Assembly (NCBI GenBank): GCA_030372945.1
Contig: JAUCQD010000173.1
Span: 1-38,589, forward strand
Origin: Methanothrix sp.
GTDB lineage: Archaea; Halobacteriota; Methanosarcinia; Methanotrichales; Methanotrichaceae
Direction of reading: 5' to 3'
Length of the DNA stretch: 38,589 nt
The notes under the pieces were generated by a model, which ran no database searches, was not told the origin of the DNA, and saw only the letters and a program-made list of their open reading frames with translations. Positions 19,706 through 27,657 of the stretch are shown piece after piece (position 1 is the stretch's first letter; each line of letters begins with the position of its first letter). The translations under genes were made by a program, and so were the position numbers.

Positions 19706-20362
19706 ATGCGAACTATATTTAAGATCTCGTTAGTGTTCAGTTTGATTTTAATGCTGAGCACTTCCGCGTTGGGTTATGCATTTGGAAGCAAAGTTGCCCA
19801 TAATAACTACGATTGGGGGTATCCCCTAGTATTTCTAACAGCAAACCCCAATGATATTGGATACGTGGACTCAGGTGCGAATGGTTATGATGTAGGAGAT
19901 ACCATCTATCTGCGAAAATTTGCGAACAGCGACGCAAGAGTTCGGCTGTCCTGGGGCAATGGCAATCCCGGTGCGGCACCTGGCACAAAAGTGGAGATGG
20001 GAGATCAAGACTTCAATCAGCCCCTGATTGCCTTTAATGCTCCTGACTTTGTATTCAATGATATATCCGGTGTGATAGGCACCTACGACCGTTTCGATAG
20101 AGTTTATTTTACGACAGACATTGGTTCCGGATTGCTATTGACTGGCGATGATCGACTGAGTGTGCCCTCTGCAGGAACAAAGATTAGAAACTTCAATCCT
20201 GAAAATGGAAGACCATGGACCGCCTTCCCAGTTGCCTCAATACAGTATGTCGAAATTGATGGAAATGCAGGATACAACGTCTGCAGTGATTTCCTATACC
20301 TTCACATAGGTGGCAGCCATACTGTTTCGACTGGCGACATTCGCCTGACGCCGACACCCTGA
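19706..20362 (+). CDS. Secreted protein of unknown function
   Basis: Signal peptide MRTIFKISLVFSLILMLSTSALGYA; beta-rich body of 218 aa; GTAGGAGCGG upstream of ATG. Confidence 0.75.
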   Translation: MRTIFKISLVFSLILMLSTSALGYAFGSKVAHNNYDWGYPLVFLTANPNDIGYVDSGANGYDVGDTIYLRKFANSDARVRLSWGNGNPGAAPGTKVEMGDQDFNQPLIAFNAPDFVFNDISGVIGTYDRFDRVYFTTDIGSGLLLTGDDRLSVPSAGTKIRNFNPENGRPWTAFPVASIQYVEIDGNAGYNVCSDFLYLHIGGSHTVSTGDIRLTPTP

Positions 20363-20434
20363 TGCAGGTCCTTCTTCTTAGTCCTTCTTCTTTTTTCGAT
20401 CACTTAAAATATCTTGGCATTCAATTTCATCGTC

Positions 20435-21067
20435 ATGCTTCTGCTGGGCGTAGATGAGGCAGGAAAAGGCCCAGTTGTCGGGTCGATGTTCATCGCAGGC
20501 CTGGTCATCGAGGAGGATAGGCTCTTTGACCTCGCGGCTATGGGCGTAAAAGACTCCAAGCGTCTTAGCCCAAAGGCACGTGAGATGCTGGCCAGAAAGA
20601 TCCGAAGCATCTCTGCCGACCAGTACATCCTGGAAGTCCCGCCGCGAGTCATCGATGAGCTTCGACTGGCTATGACGATGAACGAGATCATGGTAAGGAG
20701 CTTCTCTCAGGTGGTGCAAAGGCTGCATGCTGACAGGGCTGTTCTCGACGCCGCGGATGTGGATGCAGCCAGGTTTGCAGAGCGAGTGAAAGAGACCAGC
20801 AAAACCGGCATGGAGCTGATCGCCGAGCATAAAGCTGACGAGCGCCACCTGGTAGTCTCAGCCGCTTCCATCCTTGCCAAGGTGAGGCGAGATGCATCTT
20901 TGCGGGAACTGGAGGAGGAGCTGGGCCGCAAGATCGGAAGCGGATACCCATCTGATAAGGATACACTCGAATTTTTGAGCTGCTGGGTCAGAGAAAATCG
21001 AGAGCTTCCACCATGTGCCAGGCATAGCTGGACCACAGCACAACGTATAAAAGCTAGTTTTATATAG
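20435..21067 (+). CDS. rnhB: Ribonuclease HII
   Basis: MLLLGVDEAGKGPVVGSMFIAGLV, VKDSKRLSPKAREML, DERHLVVSAASILAKVRRD, GSGYPSDKDT. Confidence 0.96.
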   Translation: MLLLGVDEAGKGPVVGSMFIAGLVIEEDRLFDLAAMGVKDSKRLSPKAREMLARKIRSISADQYILEVPPRVIDELRLAMTMNEIMVRSFSQVVQRLHADRAVLDAADVDAARFAERVKETSKTGMELIAEHKADERHLVVSAASILAKVRRDASLRELEEELGRKIGSGYPSDKDTLEFLSCWVRENRELPPCARHSWTTAQRIKASFI

Positions 21068-21106
21068 ACCGCCTGAAACTAAGAGTTCTTTAGAGTTGGG
21101 ATACCC

Positions 21107-22252
21107 ATGGATATAGAGGATACGTTGCTCATGATTCCAGGGCCTGTCAAGGTCGCACCGCGCGTTTTGCGCTCCATGTCCAAACCTATGATCAGCCACA
21201 GAAGCGGCGAGTTCGGAGCCATCTACAGCGATTGCATCGGACTTCTCAAGCAGTTTTTCGAGACCCAGAACGATGTAGTTATAATGACCGGCAGCGGCAC
21301 TGTGGGTATGGATGCAGCCGTGGGCAGCATCATCGGTCGCAAGGACACCATCGTGACCATATCCAACGGAAAATTCGGCGAGAGGTTCACTGAGATCGGA
21401 GAGAGGTACGGCAAGGTCCTACCGGTGAAGTTCGAGTGGGGCACTCCCTTCGATCTGGAAAAGGTTGAAGCTGCACTTGAGCAGGGAGCTAAAGCTGTGG
21501 CCATGGTCCATAACGAGACCTCCGTCGGCCTCACCAACCCTGCAAAAGAGGTTGGCAAGCTGGCCCAAAAGCATGACGCAATCTTCATAGTGGACGGCAT
21601 ATCCTCGATAGGCGGGAATGAATTCCTGACAGATGATTGGAACATCGACATCGCCATCACCGGGTCTCAGAAGGCTCTGGCTGTACCTCCCGGCCTGGCC
21701 ATAGTCTCTGTATCGCAAAAAGCAGAAGAGAGGTTCGAGGCCAAGAGCGCCAGCTATTACGCAGACCTCAAGGCTCATCTGAAGAGTGCTAGGAAGAGTC
21801 CAGTGCAGACGCCTTACACTCCGGCGGTCCCCCTGTTCTTCGCTCTACAAGAAGCGCTGCATATGGCGTCAGAGGAGGGCTTTGCCTCTCGCAGGGCCAG
21901 AACTGCCCGTCAGGCTGAAGCAGTTCGGTCTGCGGCCAGAGCGCTGGACATCGAGCTCTTCCCTCAGGTGAACGAGCATTCTCATTACTCCAATACAGTA
22001 ACTGCCATGAAGATGCCTGCTGGGGTCACAGACGACAAACTGCGTGGCGGCATGAAGAAGCAGGGCGTGGTTGTGTCCGGCGGCCAGGAGCAGCTCAAGG
22101 GCAAGATCTTCCGCATCGGCACCATGGGCGCCTGCTCATCAGGCGATATTTTGAGGACGATCCAGACCCTTGAGCTGGTGTTGGCCAAGGAAGGGCAATT
22201 GCGATCACGTGGCGCAGGCGTTGAGGCAGCGAGCAGGGTGCTGGGAGTTTGA
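21107..22252 (+). CDS. Class V pyridoxal-phosphate aminotransferase (alanine-glyoxylate/aspartate type)
   Basis: MIPGPVKVAPRVLRSMSKPMISHRSGEF, MTGSGTVGMDAAVGS, HNETSVGLTNP, VDGISSIGG, GSQKALAVPPGLA (PLP lysine). Confidence 0.92.
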   Translation: MDIEDTLLMIPGPVKVAPRVLRSMSKPMISHRSGEFGAIYSDCIGLLKQFFETQNDVVIMTGSGTVGMDAAVGSIIGRKDTIVTISNGKFGERFTEIGERYGKVLPVKFEWGTPFDLEKVEAALEQGAKAVAMVHNETSVGLTNPAKEVGKLAQKHDAIFIVDGISSIGGNEFLTDDWNIDIAITGSQKALAVPPGLAIVSVSQKAEERFEAKSASYYADLKAHLKSARKSPVQTPYTPAVPLFFALQEALHMASEEGFASRRARTARQAEAVRSAARALDIELFPQVNEHSHYSNTVTAMKMPAGVTDDKLRGGMKKQGVVVSGGQEQLKGKIFRIGTMGACSSGDILRTIQTLELVLAKEGQLRSRGAGVEAASRVLGV

Positions 22253-22311: not shown

Positions 22312-22328
22312 CCAAAAGTCTTATAAGC
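22312..22328 (+). promoter_or_regulatory. Candidate BRE/TATA promoter upstream of the tubulin-like operon
   Basis: CCAAAAGTCTTATAAGC about 60 nt upstream of ATG 22386. Confidence 0.3.
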
Positions 22329-22385: not shown

Positions 22386-24011
22386 ATGGGCTGCCTACGA
22401 TCTTTGATCATTTTTTCTATACTACTCCTGTGGCTTGTCAATCCTGGCAATTCTTACGATGTATCTGTATTCATGAATCAGGCAGGCACTTTGATTGAGC
22501 CTTTTGATGTGGGCAAGACCATAGTATACAATGTTCAGATCTCTGGTGCAAGTAAATCTATGCTGTACACAGTCGAGATTACTGTTGGGCCTGGACCCGA
22601 TCAATCTGTCTCAAAAACCATCAAAAAAGATATAAACGCGAACGGCAACTCAGTCACTGTTCAATTTCCTGTGAATTTTCAGAGCTCCGAATTCTTGAGC
22701 GGTGAATTTGGAAAATGGCTTGGCGACCAAAACCGGACGGAAACATGGGATAGCGCATGGTACAGGGTTACAGTTACATCTCTCAATCCCTTCGAGGAAC
22801 CTGTTCAAGCCGAGGATCATACCGGCAAGCCGTCCATTGCGAAAGTCTTAGAGGAGTTTTGGGACCAGAAAGTTACTCCAAGAAAAGGATCAAATGAAGA
22901 TAGATATCAGTACGAGGTCTCGGTTCTATCCACTGTCCAGGATAGCATAACTTTAGAGGTTGGTCCGTCACGCAGTGGTCCTTGGACTTTGGTGGGCACA
23001 CAATCATATACAACACCTGGAATCCGGCAGATCCTCAAGTGGTCCAACGTAAGCCTGGGCTTTGATTTTGACTCTGCCGCTTACAGGATTTGTGGCAGAA
23101 AACAGATGATATTCGACGGACCCTCATGGCCTGTGGATGTCGAGTATAAAAATAGCAGGGTATCTCCAGATAGGGGCTTGTCAGATACGCCCTTCAACTA
23201 CAGCATAGATGTTAAAGCAGCGAAGGCCATCGATGTGGGGCTGAACGTCTGGGATGTGAGCAACAAAAGATATATTTCTGCAGGAAGGCAAAGCTACGTC
23301 AACGTCGGTCAGTGGGAGACTATGGTCTGGAGAGAGATCAATCCCTCATCGTCTGCAGAATCAAGCGGCATGTCCAACTATTACTTCAGCTTTTACTATC
23401 AAGGATCTGATAATCCTTTCTCCACCACTTATGAAAAAACCGGCAAGTATTCTTCAGGCCCAGCCCTGGTTGCGGTGAATTTGAGGAACTGGACGGTGAG
23501 CCCTGCAAACGGCTCAGTCTTCACCTGTTACAACTATTCTGTCCAGGTAGAAACAAGGCTGCCAAGTTGCGATATCGAACTGCAGACAGCACAGCCAAAC
23601 GGCGGGGTCTGGATAAATCAGGGAACTGCGACATACAGTGGAGACAACGAGACACTCGTTTGGAAAAATGTAAGCTTAGATCCTGTAAGCGATGAGCTGG
23701 GCAATGCAAGCTACAGGTTCTTGCTTGGAGACACAGTTCTGGGAAGATATGTTGGTCCGAAGATCGATGTTGCTTTTCGGGATCTGCTGTACAGCCGCAT
23801 CGGCAATACCGATCGTTTTGATTATAAGGTGAAGGTAAGATCCTCGAGACCTGGCCTGAAAATCGATCTGATCTACACGGATGATGGATTGGTCTGGAAT
23901 AGATCTCATCAGATCCAGGAATACAGATCCAATAGCACAGAATGGCAAGAGCTGGCATGGAAGAACCAACCCTGGCACAAGACAATAAAATTCGATGTGG
24001 TGAGCAATTAA
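22386..24011 (+). CDS. Secreted protein with about four tandem beta-sandwich modules
   Basis: N-terminal signal peptide MGCLRSLIIFSILLLWLVNPGNS; recurring module VxPxxG...Y.Y.V.V...I.L.........W...G...Y.....E.L.WKN. Confidence 0.75.
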   Translation: MGCLRSLIIFSILLLWLVNPGNSYDVSVFMNQAGTLIEPFDVGKTIVYNVQISGASKSMLYTVEITVGPGPDQSVSKTIKKDINANGNSVTVQFPVNFQSSEFLSGEFGKWLGDQNRTETWDSAWYRVTVTSLNPFEEPVQAEDHTGKPSIAKVLEEFWDQKVTPRKGSNEDRYQYEVSVLSTVQDSITLEVGPSRSGPWTLVGTQSYTTPGIRQILKWSNVSLGFDFDSAAYRICGRKQMIFDGPSWPVDVEYKNSRVSPDRGLSDTPFNYSIDVKAAKAIDVGLNVWDVSNKRYISAGRQSYVNVGQWETMVWREINPSSSAESSGMSNYYFSFYYQGSDNPFSTTYEKTGKYSSGPALVAVNLRNWTVSPANGSVFTCYNYSVQVETRLPSCDIELQTAQPNGGVWINQGTATYSGDNETLVWKNVSLDPVSDELGNASYRFLLGDTVLGRYVGPKIDVAFRDLLYSRIGNTDRFDYKVKVRSSRPGLKIDLIYTDDGLVWNRSHQIQEYRSNSTEWQELAWKNQPWHKTIKFDVVSN

Positions 24012-25397
24012 ATGGGCCAAGCACTTCGGTTTGCTATACTCCTGATGCTTCTGTTGCTATTGGATCAGCATGTCGCATGCCAGACTCTGGACATTCCCCC
24101 GCCTACGCCATCGCAAGGAGGCGGCGGGGGCGGTGGGAGCAGGCAGACCGATTTGGACAGGATCTTGAAGGCTTTGCAGGAAGGAAAGGAGCAAAAGCCT
24201 CAGAAGTTCGAGCAGTTGAAGAAACTGCTCTACATTGAGCCGTTTACAACTAAAGAATACAGCGATAAGTTAGGGCTGGGCCTTGATTTCAAAGGCAATA
24301 CGACGCTCAATAGAACTCAGGATTTTGTGGTACGAGCATATGTTGTAAACTCCAATCCGATAGAGATACGCAGGGCGATTTACCTGCGCCTGGAGGCCCT
24401 ATTGCCTGGCGAGAATGCTTTCTTGCAGGTGAATTCCATACCACAGATCATTCAGATAAATGAATACCAGGAGTCGAAGGACGGATCAAACTTTACATAC
24501 AGAGCCTTTCCTGAGCTGACATCGTTTTGTGATTTAAAGAAAGTCGGCACCGTCGTTCTTAGGTTGAAGGCGACCGACGGACAATATACCTGGACCTCGA
24601 AGAATCTCACGCTTAATGTAACAAATAGCCCACCCGTGCTATCTGACCTGTCCATAGAGGCTCCAAGCCCCACGAGGTATAATGATCCCATCACATATGT
24701 GGCCAACGTCACTGATTCAAACGGTGATGCTGTTAATGTCACCTTGCATATACTGGATGATACGGGCAGCGAAAGATCGAATGCAACTCAAATGGTCGCC
24801 TCCGGCCAGAGAGTGAACTTCGTGGCCAGCCAGTATGGTTTTTTTAATAAGGGTGATGCGGGAAAGAACTTCACATATTACTACTCCTTTGGAGACGGCA
24901 TAAACGTCTCTGTGACCGGCATTCAAAAGGGGCCTCAGTTAAAGAAGAGCACAGCCATATGGGCGGGGAGGCCAAAGGTCACACCTGAAGATCAAAATCA
25001 ATATTGGTGGCAGGGCTACAACTTCAGCCTGGAGATGAAGAATCAAGAGCCCGAGGATGCACAGGTGCAAGTCTCCCTCTATTTGGATACAAAGGCCCAC
25101 CCATGGAGGGCAATTGCGAGCCAGAATGTGGTGTTATCGGGCAGTCCCAGGACAGTTTTCTTCCTTGTCAAGCCCTTTGATGTTCTCGATGCCAACCAGA
25201 GCTTCCGCTATAAATTCGAGTATTCAGAATATGACCAGAACCAGAAGGATTATATAGAGCAGGATGCGCAAGCCCCGCTCAGTGCTAAACTGGTCAGATA
25301 CGACACGATCTCTGCTCTGAGCTTGGGCAATGTTGCTGCTATTTTGCTGCTGGCATTTGTGCTCGGCCTCCTTCTGGAGAGGAGGTTTTACAGATGA
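24012..25397 (+). CDS. Type I membrane-anchored extracellular protein with Ig-like modules
   Basis: Signal peptide MGQALRFAILLMLLLLLDQHVACQ, poly-Gly linker, Ig-like region SPPVLSDLSIEAP...ITYVANVTDSNGDAVNVTLHI, C-terminal TM VAAILLLAFVLGLLLERRFYR. Confidence 0.78.
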   Translation: MGQALRFAILLMLLLLLDQHVACQTLDIPPPTPSQGGGGGGGSRQTDLDRILKALQEGKEQKPQKFEQLKKLLYIEPFTTKEYSDKLGLGLDFKGNTTLNRTQDFVVRAYVVNSNPIEIRRAIYLRLEALLPGENAFLQVNSIPQIIQINEYQESKDGSNFTYRAFPELTSFCDLKKVGTVVLRLKATDGQYTWTSKNLTLNVTNSPPVLSDLSIEAPSPTRYNDPITYVANVTDSNGDAVNVTLHILDDTGSERSNATQMVASGQRVNFVASQYGFFNKGDAGKNFTYYYSFGDGINVSVTGIQKGPQLKKSTAIWAGRPKVTPEDQNQYWWQGYNFSLEMKNQEPEDAQVQVSLYLDTKAHPWRAIASQNVVLSGSPRTVFFLVKPFDVLDANQSFRYKFEYSEYDQNQKDYIEQDAQAPLSAKLVRYDTISALSLGNVAAILLLAFVLGLLLERRFYR

Positions 25398-25996
25398 ACC
25401 TGCTCGGGCATGATATATTTGAGGCTTACATGCTCATATGCCTGGTAGCTATTTTGATTTTAGGCGGAGCCCTCCACGTGATGTATCTGAAAATGATTGA
25501 GTCCATGGTGAAGCGCACTGAAGAGAGCGATTTCAACCTCGAAGATCTCATGAGGTCTATGCACATCTCTCAGGGGTCGAATTTCAACATCATGATGATC
25601 CTCTCCTGGAGCCTATTATTGGTGGCGTTGGCTTTTCTTTATTTGCTGACTCCCAGTATCTTTCCGGAGTGGAACTACTTCAAGATCCCTCGCGTGGCCT
25701 CATTGGATTGGGGGTTTGCCATATTTGGCGCAGCAGCACTGATCCCAGGAGCTCTGATCTCCATATTCGTCCCAAAGGTTTACAGTTATTATCAGATACA
25801 CAAACGTCTCAAAGCAATTGCAGCTGCAATTCCAGCCCTGCTTCTCGGATCTATCATCTGTTCCGTTCATCTTGGAACCATCTACCCGGCCAGCGATCAG
25901 TTCTACTGGAATCTTGGATACTTGATGCTAGCGGCAGCAGCCGTCCTCATGATCTTGCCAATCTCAATTGGCTTTCTGGAGGCGTGGCGGCAATGA
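25394..25996 (+). CDS. Five-TM integral membrane protein, unknown family
   Basis: Five hydrophobic segments; ATGA overlaps with both neighbouring genes. Confidence 0.75.
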   Translation: MNLLGHDIFEAYMLICLVAILILGGALHVMYLKMIESMVKRTEESDFNLEDLMRSMHISQGSNFNIMMILSWSLLLVALAFLYLLTPSIFPEWNYFKIPRVASLDWGFAIFGAAALIPGALISIFVPKVYSYYQIHKRLKAIAAAIPALLLGSIICSVHLGTIYPASDQFYWNLGYLMLAAAAVLMILPISIGFLEAWRQ

Positions 25997-27657
25997 GACC
26001 TTGTATCGTTGGCATCGGGGGTGCAGGCGGAAATATACTGAGGCAGTTTTTACAGAGCCAGGACATCAATCTGATGGGCCTTCAATTTGGAAGGCATCTG
26101 GCCTACGGGGGAGTCAAAGGACTGTGGCTGGAATCTGCGACCCAGGACACACAACGCCAGAATTACTACGGAAGTCTGGTACAGGGACGGTATCCACCCT
26201 TTTTGATCTGTCATGGAAATGTGAGCGAGGGCTCAGACACCCGCAGATATTTGAGTGATACCTACGGGTTCGACCTCAAAGCGCCAGGCTTCGACCGCAG
26301 GGCAGAGTACCTGAAAGGGATCTTCGAGGTATTCGAATTCGACCCCAAACTGAAGGAGGTCTGCCTGGAGGAGTTCAAGAGCAACGATAATCCCCTTTCC
26401 GGGTATATGTGGCAGGTAGGCATAAGGCCTCATACGATTATTTCCACAAGCTCCGCAAGATCCAAGCTGTGCGATAGCATTCTCTTCATAGCCTCTTTAG
26501 GTGGTGGAACAGGCACTGGGTTTATAAACCCGATCACGAGCTATGTCCGATCTGAGGAGCCCATATTTCCAATCTTCGCCCTGGGAATTCTGACTGAGAA
26601 GGGAACAGATAAAAGAAAGGCCACAGAGGGCCAGAGGGATCTGGGCGCAGTCATTGCGATGTATGATCTGCTCACAAAGGCCTCAGGCGAAGGAATAGAT
26701 GTATTGATTCTTGTAGACAATCAGGCTCTGGTGCAGAGGTTTGGGGGCAATTACACCAGCATGGACGTATGCATCTACAACTCTCTCAAGCCGCTCCTCG
26801 ATCTCAGGAATTATCCAGGGGACCTGCTCCAGGACGACTCACAAGGCATCAGGAGGGTCATCTGGGAAGTGAATGGGGAGAACAATGGATCTAATGGCAT
26901 TTCCAGGAGGAATGATGGAGCTGGCAATGAAGGTCTGCTTCCGCCCATTCTGGTGCCGTGCTACTGCATTCAAGCTGCACATGAGGGAGATGAGCTGAAG
27001 CTGGTGGAGGGAGCTCTTGGCAAGAGAGGAAGCCTATTGCCTGCGGGCAAAGACGGACGGTTGTTCCCATGCGATCCTACCAAGGCCGATCGAGTCCTGG
27101 TTTTCACCCGCGGCTTTTTCCGCACCGAGGATATTAAGGAGGCCGTACAGAATAGGACGGGCCTGTCGGAGAACAAGATAATGGTCTACCGCAAATTGGG
27201 CGGTGGAAAGGTGGAGGATATGCTCATTCTGCTTCGCAACCCCTATGGTGGCTCCATCGGGGAGCATAAGCGTCCAGGCACTTTGGAGTGGAGGCTTCAC
27301 GATATAATCTCAGAATCGATAAATTACATCGAGAATAACGAGATGAACATCTTGGGCTTCCAGAGCTACAAGGAGATAACGAAGGAGATGCTCAGGAAGT
27401 ACTTCTATGGAAAAGATGGACTGCAAGATGAGCTGTACGACTGCCTGGAACGGCTCAAGGAAGGCGAGGCGCCAGTGTTCACAAGGCCTCTTAGGATCTT
27501 TGGGAATGGAATGAATGCCCTGCGAAATTGTCATGAAGAGCAGCAGATGGCAGCTTCAGATAGGGCCAGCCTGAGGAAGATGGTGAAGGAGGAGCTAAGG
27601 GAGATTTTCAATGACCAGGACTGCAGGAGGAGAATAAGAGAGATCCTTCAATCTTAA
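25993..27657 (+). CDS. Divergent tubulin/FtsZ-superfamily protein
   Basis: N-terminal IVGIGGAGGNIL (T1-like loop) and FIASLGGGTGTGFINP (T4 tubulin signature GGGTGTG); later DVLILVDNQALVQRFG resembles the FtsZ DtLIvIpNdrLl strand. ATG at 25993 overlaps the previous stop; the ORF-track start at 25669 is upstream read-through. Confidence 0.85.
   Translation: MRPCIVGIGGAGGNILRQFLQSQDINLMGLQFGRHLAYGGVKGLWLESATQDTQRQNYYGSLVQGRYPPFLICHGNVSEGSDTRRYLSDTYGFDLKAPGFDRRAEYLKGIFEVFEFDPKLKEVCLEEFKSNDNPLSGYMWQVGIRPHTIISTSSARSKLCDSILFIASLGGGTGTGFINPITSYVRSEEPIFPIFALGILTEKGTDKRKATEGQRDLGAVIAMYDLLTKASGEGIDVLILVDNQALVQRFGGNYTSMDVCIYNSLKPLLDLRNYPGDLLQDDSQGIRRVIWEVNGENNGSNGISRRNDGAGNEGLLPPILVPCYCIQAAHEGDELKLVEGALGKRGSLLPAGKDGRLFPCDPTKADRVLVFTRGFFRTEDIKEAVQNRTGLSENKIMVYRKLGGGKVEDMLILLRNPYGGSIGEHKRPGTLEWRLHDIISESINYIENNEMNILGFQSYKEITKEMLRKYFYGKDGLQDELYDCLERLKEGEAPVFTRPLRIFGNGMNALRNCHEEQQMAASDRASLRKMVKEELREIFNDQDCRRRIREILQS

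Follow-up and report, generated by a model that had tools for sequence, protein, structure and literature searches.

What might a divergent tubulin be doing in an operon of surface-protein genes? Hydrolysis of GTP at the T7 loop is what usually characterizes the tubulin superfamily. In a stretch of Methanothrix DNA of 38,589 nucleotides (the window throughout), a superfamily member that keeps the GTP-binding loops and has lost a T7 acid is encoded among surface proteins, a combination that offers a test of whether tubulins can serve as static scaffolds, or as switches, connected to the cell exterior. The Methanotrichaceae are major converters of acetate to methane and form granules, so the organization of their surface matters in practice. 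The genetic determinants of the Methanotrichaceae cytoskeleton have been stated to be unknown (PMC10598746).

The operon comprises four genes at 22386-27657, all on the + strand and abutting or overlapping by ATGA, downstream of a candidate promoter:

22321..22327, + strand: possible archaeal TATA box, TTATAAG, read by eye, candidate operon promoter
22386..24011, + strand: gene 1, secreted modular protein, 541 aa
24012..25397, + strand: gene 2, anchored Ig-like protein, 461 aa
25394..25996, + strand: gene 3, five-TM protein, 200 aa
25993..27657, + strand: gene 4, tubulin-superfamily protein, 554 aa counted from the ATGA start

The open reading frames reproduced exactly the coordinates, shared strand and junctions of the original prediction, with genes 1 and 2 meeting at 0 bp (24011/24012) and ATGA overlaps joining genes 2 and 3 (25394-25397) and genes 3 and 4 (25993-25996). 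The frame of gene 4 is open back to 25669, upstream of the ATGA start at 25993. Upstream of the operon, 20414-22252 encodes rnhB and an alanine-glyoxylate-type aminotransferase, and the AT-rich gap of 133 bp between the aminotransferase gene and gene 1 holds the candidate TATA box. The promoter scan that we ran was for sigma-70, and archaeal promoters fall outside its coverage. Gene 4 ends 5 bp from a convergent gene, which we read as putatively radical-SAM-like from its CxxxCxxC motif. The rnhB-aminotransferase pair also lies 5' of the operon at many other loci (L105-L145), and one group (L126, L128, L152, and L153) has the operon located away from it.

Gene 4 is a member of the tubulin/FtsZ superfamily, by fold and by G-box. 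The identity first proposed for it held: it scores 34.4 bits against Pfam Tubulin (cut-off 33, E 3.4e-8), a profile matched by 27/27 members of the gene 4 family, and its predicted fold is that of CetZ and tubulin. Fold prediction had been named in advance as a check that could overturn the assignment, and the AlphaFold2 model from 27 sequences (pLDDT 81, pTM 0.82; low-confidence stretches at residues 24-36, 294-313, and 506-522) came out as a tubulin. Foldseek placed CetZ2 (4b45) at 1.1e-13, with tubulin and CetZ1 also at ~1e-13, and comparison with CetZ1 (4b46) gave a TMt of 0.74. Profile-profile ranking put CetZ nearest (E 2.3e-13), followed by Tubulin_2 (1.9e-8) and FtsZ (2e-6). Beyond the GTPase domain, the model contains strands E319-328, E367-373, E396-401, and E407-415, and the family carries a large specific insert between T1 and T4 as well as a C-terminal extension, both absent from FtsZ and CetZ. 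The loops around the nucleotide map as follows:

26011..26031, + strand: T1 loop GIGGAGG of gene 4, residues 7-13; G7, G9, G10, and G12 invariant (n = 27)
26500..26520, + strand: T4 G-box GGGTGTG of gene 4, residues 170-176; invariant in 27/27
26716..26721, + strand: T6-type Asp242-Asn243 of gene 4; invariant in 27/27, aligned to ADNQ of CetZ and PND of FtsZ
26815..26859, + strand: T7-equivalent loop of gene 4, residues 275-289; placed by profile alignment with FtsZ/CetZ and column count

The T7 acids are typical of tubulin/FtsZ members, where they serve hydrolysis at the subunit interface and are not needed for the fold; the second corresponds to the D212 position of Escherichia coli FtsZ. 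Among the 27 aligned gene 4 sequences this second position (Gly285 in the window) is Ala in 24, Gly in two, and Ser in one, so that the hallmark acid is missing from the entire aligned family (27/27), while the first acid is kept in 10/27, the window's protein among them. Because the binding loops are invariant while the second T7 acid is lost, established tubulin biochemistry predicts that gene 4 probably binds GTP yet hydrolyzes it poorly or not at all at the interface.

The window's own genome encodes a canonical FtsZ and a canonical CetZ, with gene 4 as a third member. FtsZ shares with gene 4 the superfamily fold and the GGGTGTG loop; however, the T7 NxDxxD is lost in gene 4, the canonical FtsZ is encoded elsewhere in the genome, and gene 4 reaches 18 bits against the NCBIfam ftsZ model (cut-off 295). 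CetZ (Haloferax CetZ1/2 and Methanosaeta thermophila CetZ) comes closest in structure and in profile comparison (E 2.3e-13 in hhalign, 183 columns; 4b45 and 3zid as PDB profile matches), and gene 4 has its T4 loop and its T6 DN(Q). Identity is nevertheless ~20%, and gene 4 has the long T1-T4 insert and the C-terminal extension in place of the about 370-aa CetZ layout and has lost the DLGDFKT-type T7. Type IV pili and cofactor genes are described as the neighbors of CetZ genes (PMC9856176), and these differ from the neighbors of gene 4.

The original prediction had also pointed to the FtsZ-like families of Makarova and Koonin, a pointer that survives as an analogy. FtsZl1/Tubulin_2 (PF13809; PMC2875224) is likewise a divergent tubulin beside membrane or surface genes, with a T7-H7 region that is not FtsZ-like. 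FtsZl1 has a size of about 740-1090 aa, compared with 554 aa for gene 4, and vWA, kinase, GTPase, and OmpA partners, whereas gene 4 is surrounded by genes 1-3, rnhB, and the aminotransferase. FtsZl1 combines an N-terminal FtsZ domain, an extended coiled coil, and an alpha-helical C-terminus, where the gene 4 model instead has strands after the GTPase domain. Gene 4 scores 12.3 bits against PF13809 (cut-off 27), its similarity to the Tubulin_2 profile is confined to the G-box region, and a search of its own genome for PF13809 members returned no match at E ≤ 1e-8. An assignment to FtsZl1/Tubulin_2 was rejected, as gene 4 departs from that family in score, in size, in the arrangement of its domains, and in its gene neighborhood.

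TubZ, of the phage and plasmid tubulins (TubZ/PhuZ), is the best single-sequence PDB match of gene 4, but partition partners are lacking, and gene 4 is chromosomal and kept across the family. A phage or defense origin was rejected as well: PADLOC returned no defense match, PHROG matching gave one weak hit for gene 4, and 2.9 million viral contigs contained no relative of genes 2 or 4. Gene 4 is neither FtsZ, nor CetZ, nor FtsZl1/Tubulin_2. Targeted searches of the open-access literature found no prior description of the operon, and the accessible parts of three archaeal tubulin surveys (PMC9856176, PMC9871819, and PMC2875224) mention other non-canonical members and not this operon. We regard gene 4 as a new branch of an established superfamily, set in a gene context that is also new.

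Gene 1 bears out its earlier description as a secreted multi-module protein. It has a signal peptide and no anchor, and an N-terminal domain is followed by about four ~100-aa beta-type modules that match one another at about 1e-4 to 1e-9. Its homologues span 537-1460 aa by clade; some groups have lengths of 537-680 aa and others of about 1040-1460 aa, a difference that largely follows the operon clade. We considered the sheath protein MspA as an identity for gene 1 and rejected it, because MspA was reported in 2018 to have no RefSeq homologues (PMC6242892), whereas homologues of gene 1 are present in M. harundinacea 6Ac and across most of the family.

Gene 2 had been called a membrane-anchored Ig-like protein. 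The anchor was borne out by a single C-terminal TM (residues 437-455), which follows a signal peptide, a Gly-rich linker, and an extracellular Ig/PKD-like region; the Ig-like label draws on sub-threshold matches to PKD, cadherin, and Big_9, and the gene 2 profile had no match among PDB sequences. Gene 3, as claimed, has five predicted TM helices, retained in 25/26 homologues, with a predicted N-out/C-in topology and two basic cytoplasmic loops. Its AlphaFold2 model (pLDDT 83) matched no PDB fold below E = 0.5. Conserved positions of both proteins lie at the membrane:

25329..25331, + strand: codon of Asn440, in the gene 2 TM helix; invariant (n = 25)
25571..25585, + strand: residues 60-64 of gene 3, the QGSNF motif, at TM2's cytoplasmic mouth; G61, N63, and F64 invariant

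Glu456-Arg457 of gene 2, on the inner side of the membrane, is likewise invariant (25/25 sequences). The cytoplasmic end of gene 2 is ERRFYR in the window and its group, and is exchanged for a basic tail of ~40 residues in the group whose gene 1 is, for the most part, the longest. Asn440, Glu456-Arg457, and this tail swap suggest, indirectly, a packing of the gene 2 TM against gene 3 and a gene 2 tail facing gene 4.

The four genes are a real conserved unit, essentially specific to Methanotrichaceae. The synteny search, which could have broken the proposal, found them kept together across the family: genes 2-3-4 are contiguous in 43/43 distinct loci with enough upstream DNA, genes 3 and 4 overlap by 4 bp in 35/43, and almost every locus whose contig extends far enough has gene 1 upstream of them (exception L119). 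Three genomes carry two divergent operon copies (fen_7, L122/L134; M. harundinacea 57_489, L127/L133; Methanocrinis natronophilus, L123/L131). Over 25 shared loci, tree distances correlate at r = 0.94 for genes 3 and 4, 0.88 for genes 2 and 3, and 0.84 for genes 2 and 4, compared with 0.52-0.78 between genes 2-4 and the adjacent aminotransferase, a housekeeping gene, at the same loci. Partial correlations given the aminotransferase, calculated by hand, were about 0.93 (3-4), 0.77 (2-3), and 0.81 (2-4); shared phylogeny inflates distance correlations, which makes them support for co-evolution and not proof of it. Comparison with the two closest relatives gave dN/dS values of 0.07-0.25 for all four genes, indicating purifying selection.

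Gene 4 was found in 21/22 Methanotrichaceae genomes of at least 90% completeness and in 0/24 genomes of other families in the same search. Named records with gene 4 belong to Methanothrix, Methanosaeta, and Methanocrinis, and the isolates include M. harundinacea 6Ac (plasmid NC_016637) and G130 (single contig, 1,879,471 bp), which we take to be M. thermoacetophila PT. M. soehngenii GP6 (plasmid NC_015430) is the exception: genes 2 and 4 are absent, and a tryptophan-synthase-beta-like gene follows the conserved aminotransferase in the place of the operon. A phylum sample of 295 genomes yielded one genome with gene 4 from outside the family, a Methanocellaceae MAG; the other matches scored weakly (E 1e-11 to 1e-6), and the ones inspected turned out to be canonical CetZ. 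The complete four-gene operon of this MAG (UBA148, L109) is nested in the window's Methanothrix clade and absent from four relatives, and could reflect either horizontal transfer or a mis-binned contig. In one further MAG (L035), a single TAG stop splits gene 4 into frames of 338 and 240 aa, either a sequencing error or a recent pseudogene.

We tentatively favor, at slightly below an even chance, a transmembrane envelope module specific to Methanotrichaceae, in which a submembrane tubulin-like polymer or GTP switch positions surface proteins. Gene 4 would bind GTP via T1, T4, and T6 and, lacking the T7 acid, would most likely assemble into stable protofilaments that turn over slowly beneath the membrane, or else act as a GTP-held switch. 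It would dock on the cytoplasmic loops of gene 3; within the membrane, gene 3 would pair with gene 2's only TM, and gene 2 would present or tether gene 1 between cell and sheath, so that the complex would place surface proteins according to the internal polymer. The module draws on the tubulin fold, the loop residues, the predicted topology, the conservation of the operon (43/43 contiguity), co-divergence, and block duplication in the two-copy genomes, with further support from the gene 2 invariants, purifying selection, and the joint loss of genes 2 and 4 in GP6. Counted against it are a gene 3 of no known fold or family, a T7 loss read from an alignment, the phylogenetic inflation of the distance correlations, and the low-confidence stretches of the gene 4 model. 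The earlier proposal that a cytoskeleton couples to the surface through membrane proteins gains plausibility from the co-divergence of genes 2-3-4, the whole-operon duplications, and the TM and junction invariants of gene 2; the physical coupling itself we infer. A bolder form, in which a hydrolysis-deficient tubulin homologue is a permanent submembrane scaffold that sets the positions of extracellular Ig-type proteins by way of a dedicated transmembrane linker of two proteins, is distinctly unlikely; if true, it would be a tubulin-based prokaryotic counterpart of cytoskeleton-to-matrix coupling.

The lost T7 acid, the insert and extension absent from FtsZ and CetZ, and the constant adjacency of the five-TM gene 3 would suit a gene 4 that never polymerizes and, as a monomeric GTP-binding switch, gates the export or assembly of surface proteins via gene 3. 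We consider this switch unlikely, though credible: the operon has no export machinery or ATPase, and the ordinary signal peptides of genes 1 and 2 call for no special exporter. That the genes share a transcript and no common function is very improbable; rnhB and the aminotransferase are conserved neighbors at many loci despite an unlikely functional relation, but the operon stays intact away from them (L152, L126, and L128), duplicates as a block, and co-diverges.

Two further readings start from the near restriction of the operon to a family of filamentous, sheathed cells, and GP6 disfavors both, since it lacks genes 2 and 4 while its species, described as M. concilii, is a classical former of sheaths and concentric-ring plugs (PMC6242892; match at the species level), and SH sheath proteins have been reported throughout the Methanotrichales (PMC11576556). 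In the first, gene 4 would be an auxiliary tubulin at the septum, part of an apparatus for division or for the septum/spacer plug; this would fit the fact that plug proteins are unknown (PMC6242892, PMC11576556), but canonical FtsZ and CetZ are also present in these genomes, and we judge it quite improbable. The original prediction had offered sheath patterning as an example, and guidance of sheath hoop assembly is the least likely reading considered here. Its taxonomic overlap with sheathed Methanotrichaceae and the thioredoxin/DsbD-like pair 3' of many Methanothrix loci, given disulfide-linked hoops (PMC6242892), speak for it; against it, no sheath (SH) protein was recognized in the operon, and no other sheathed group with the operon was seen in the 295-genome phylum sample, whose genera are unstated.

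Two neighbors of the operon deserve mention. Upstream of rnhB, 19706-20362 encodes a secreted 218-aa protein that could be a cap-less sheath-type protein; one to three copies of its relatives are present, frequently as tandem genes directly 5' of rnhB or within ~55 kb of the operon, and GP6, itself without the operon, yielded none. Downstream of gene 4, many Methanothrix genomes (loci L139, L142, L143, L144, L145, and L113) carry a secreted thioredoxin-like gene of 188-194 aa and a DsbD/CcdA-like gene of 468-490 aa. Because sheath hoops are disulfide-linked (PMC6242892), an envelope redox link is possible.
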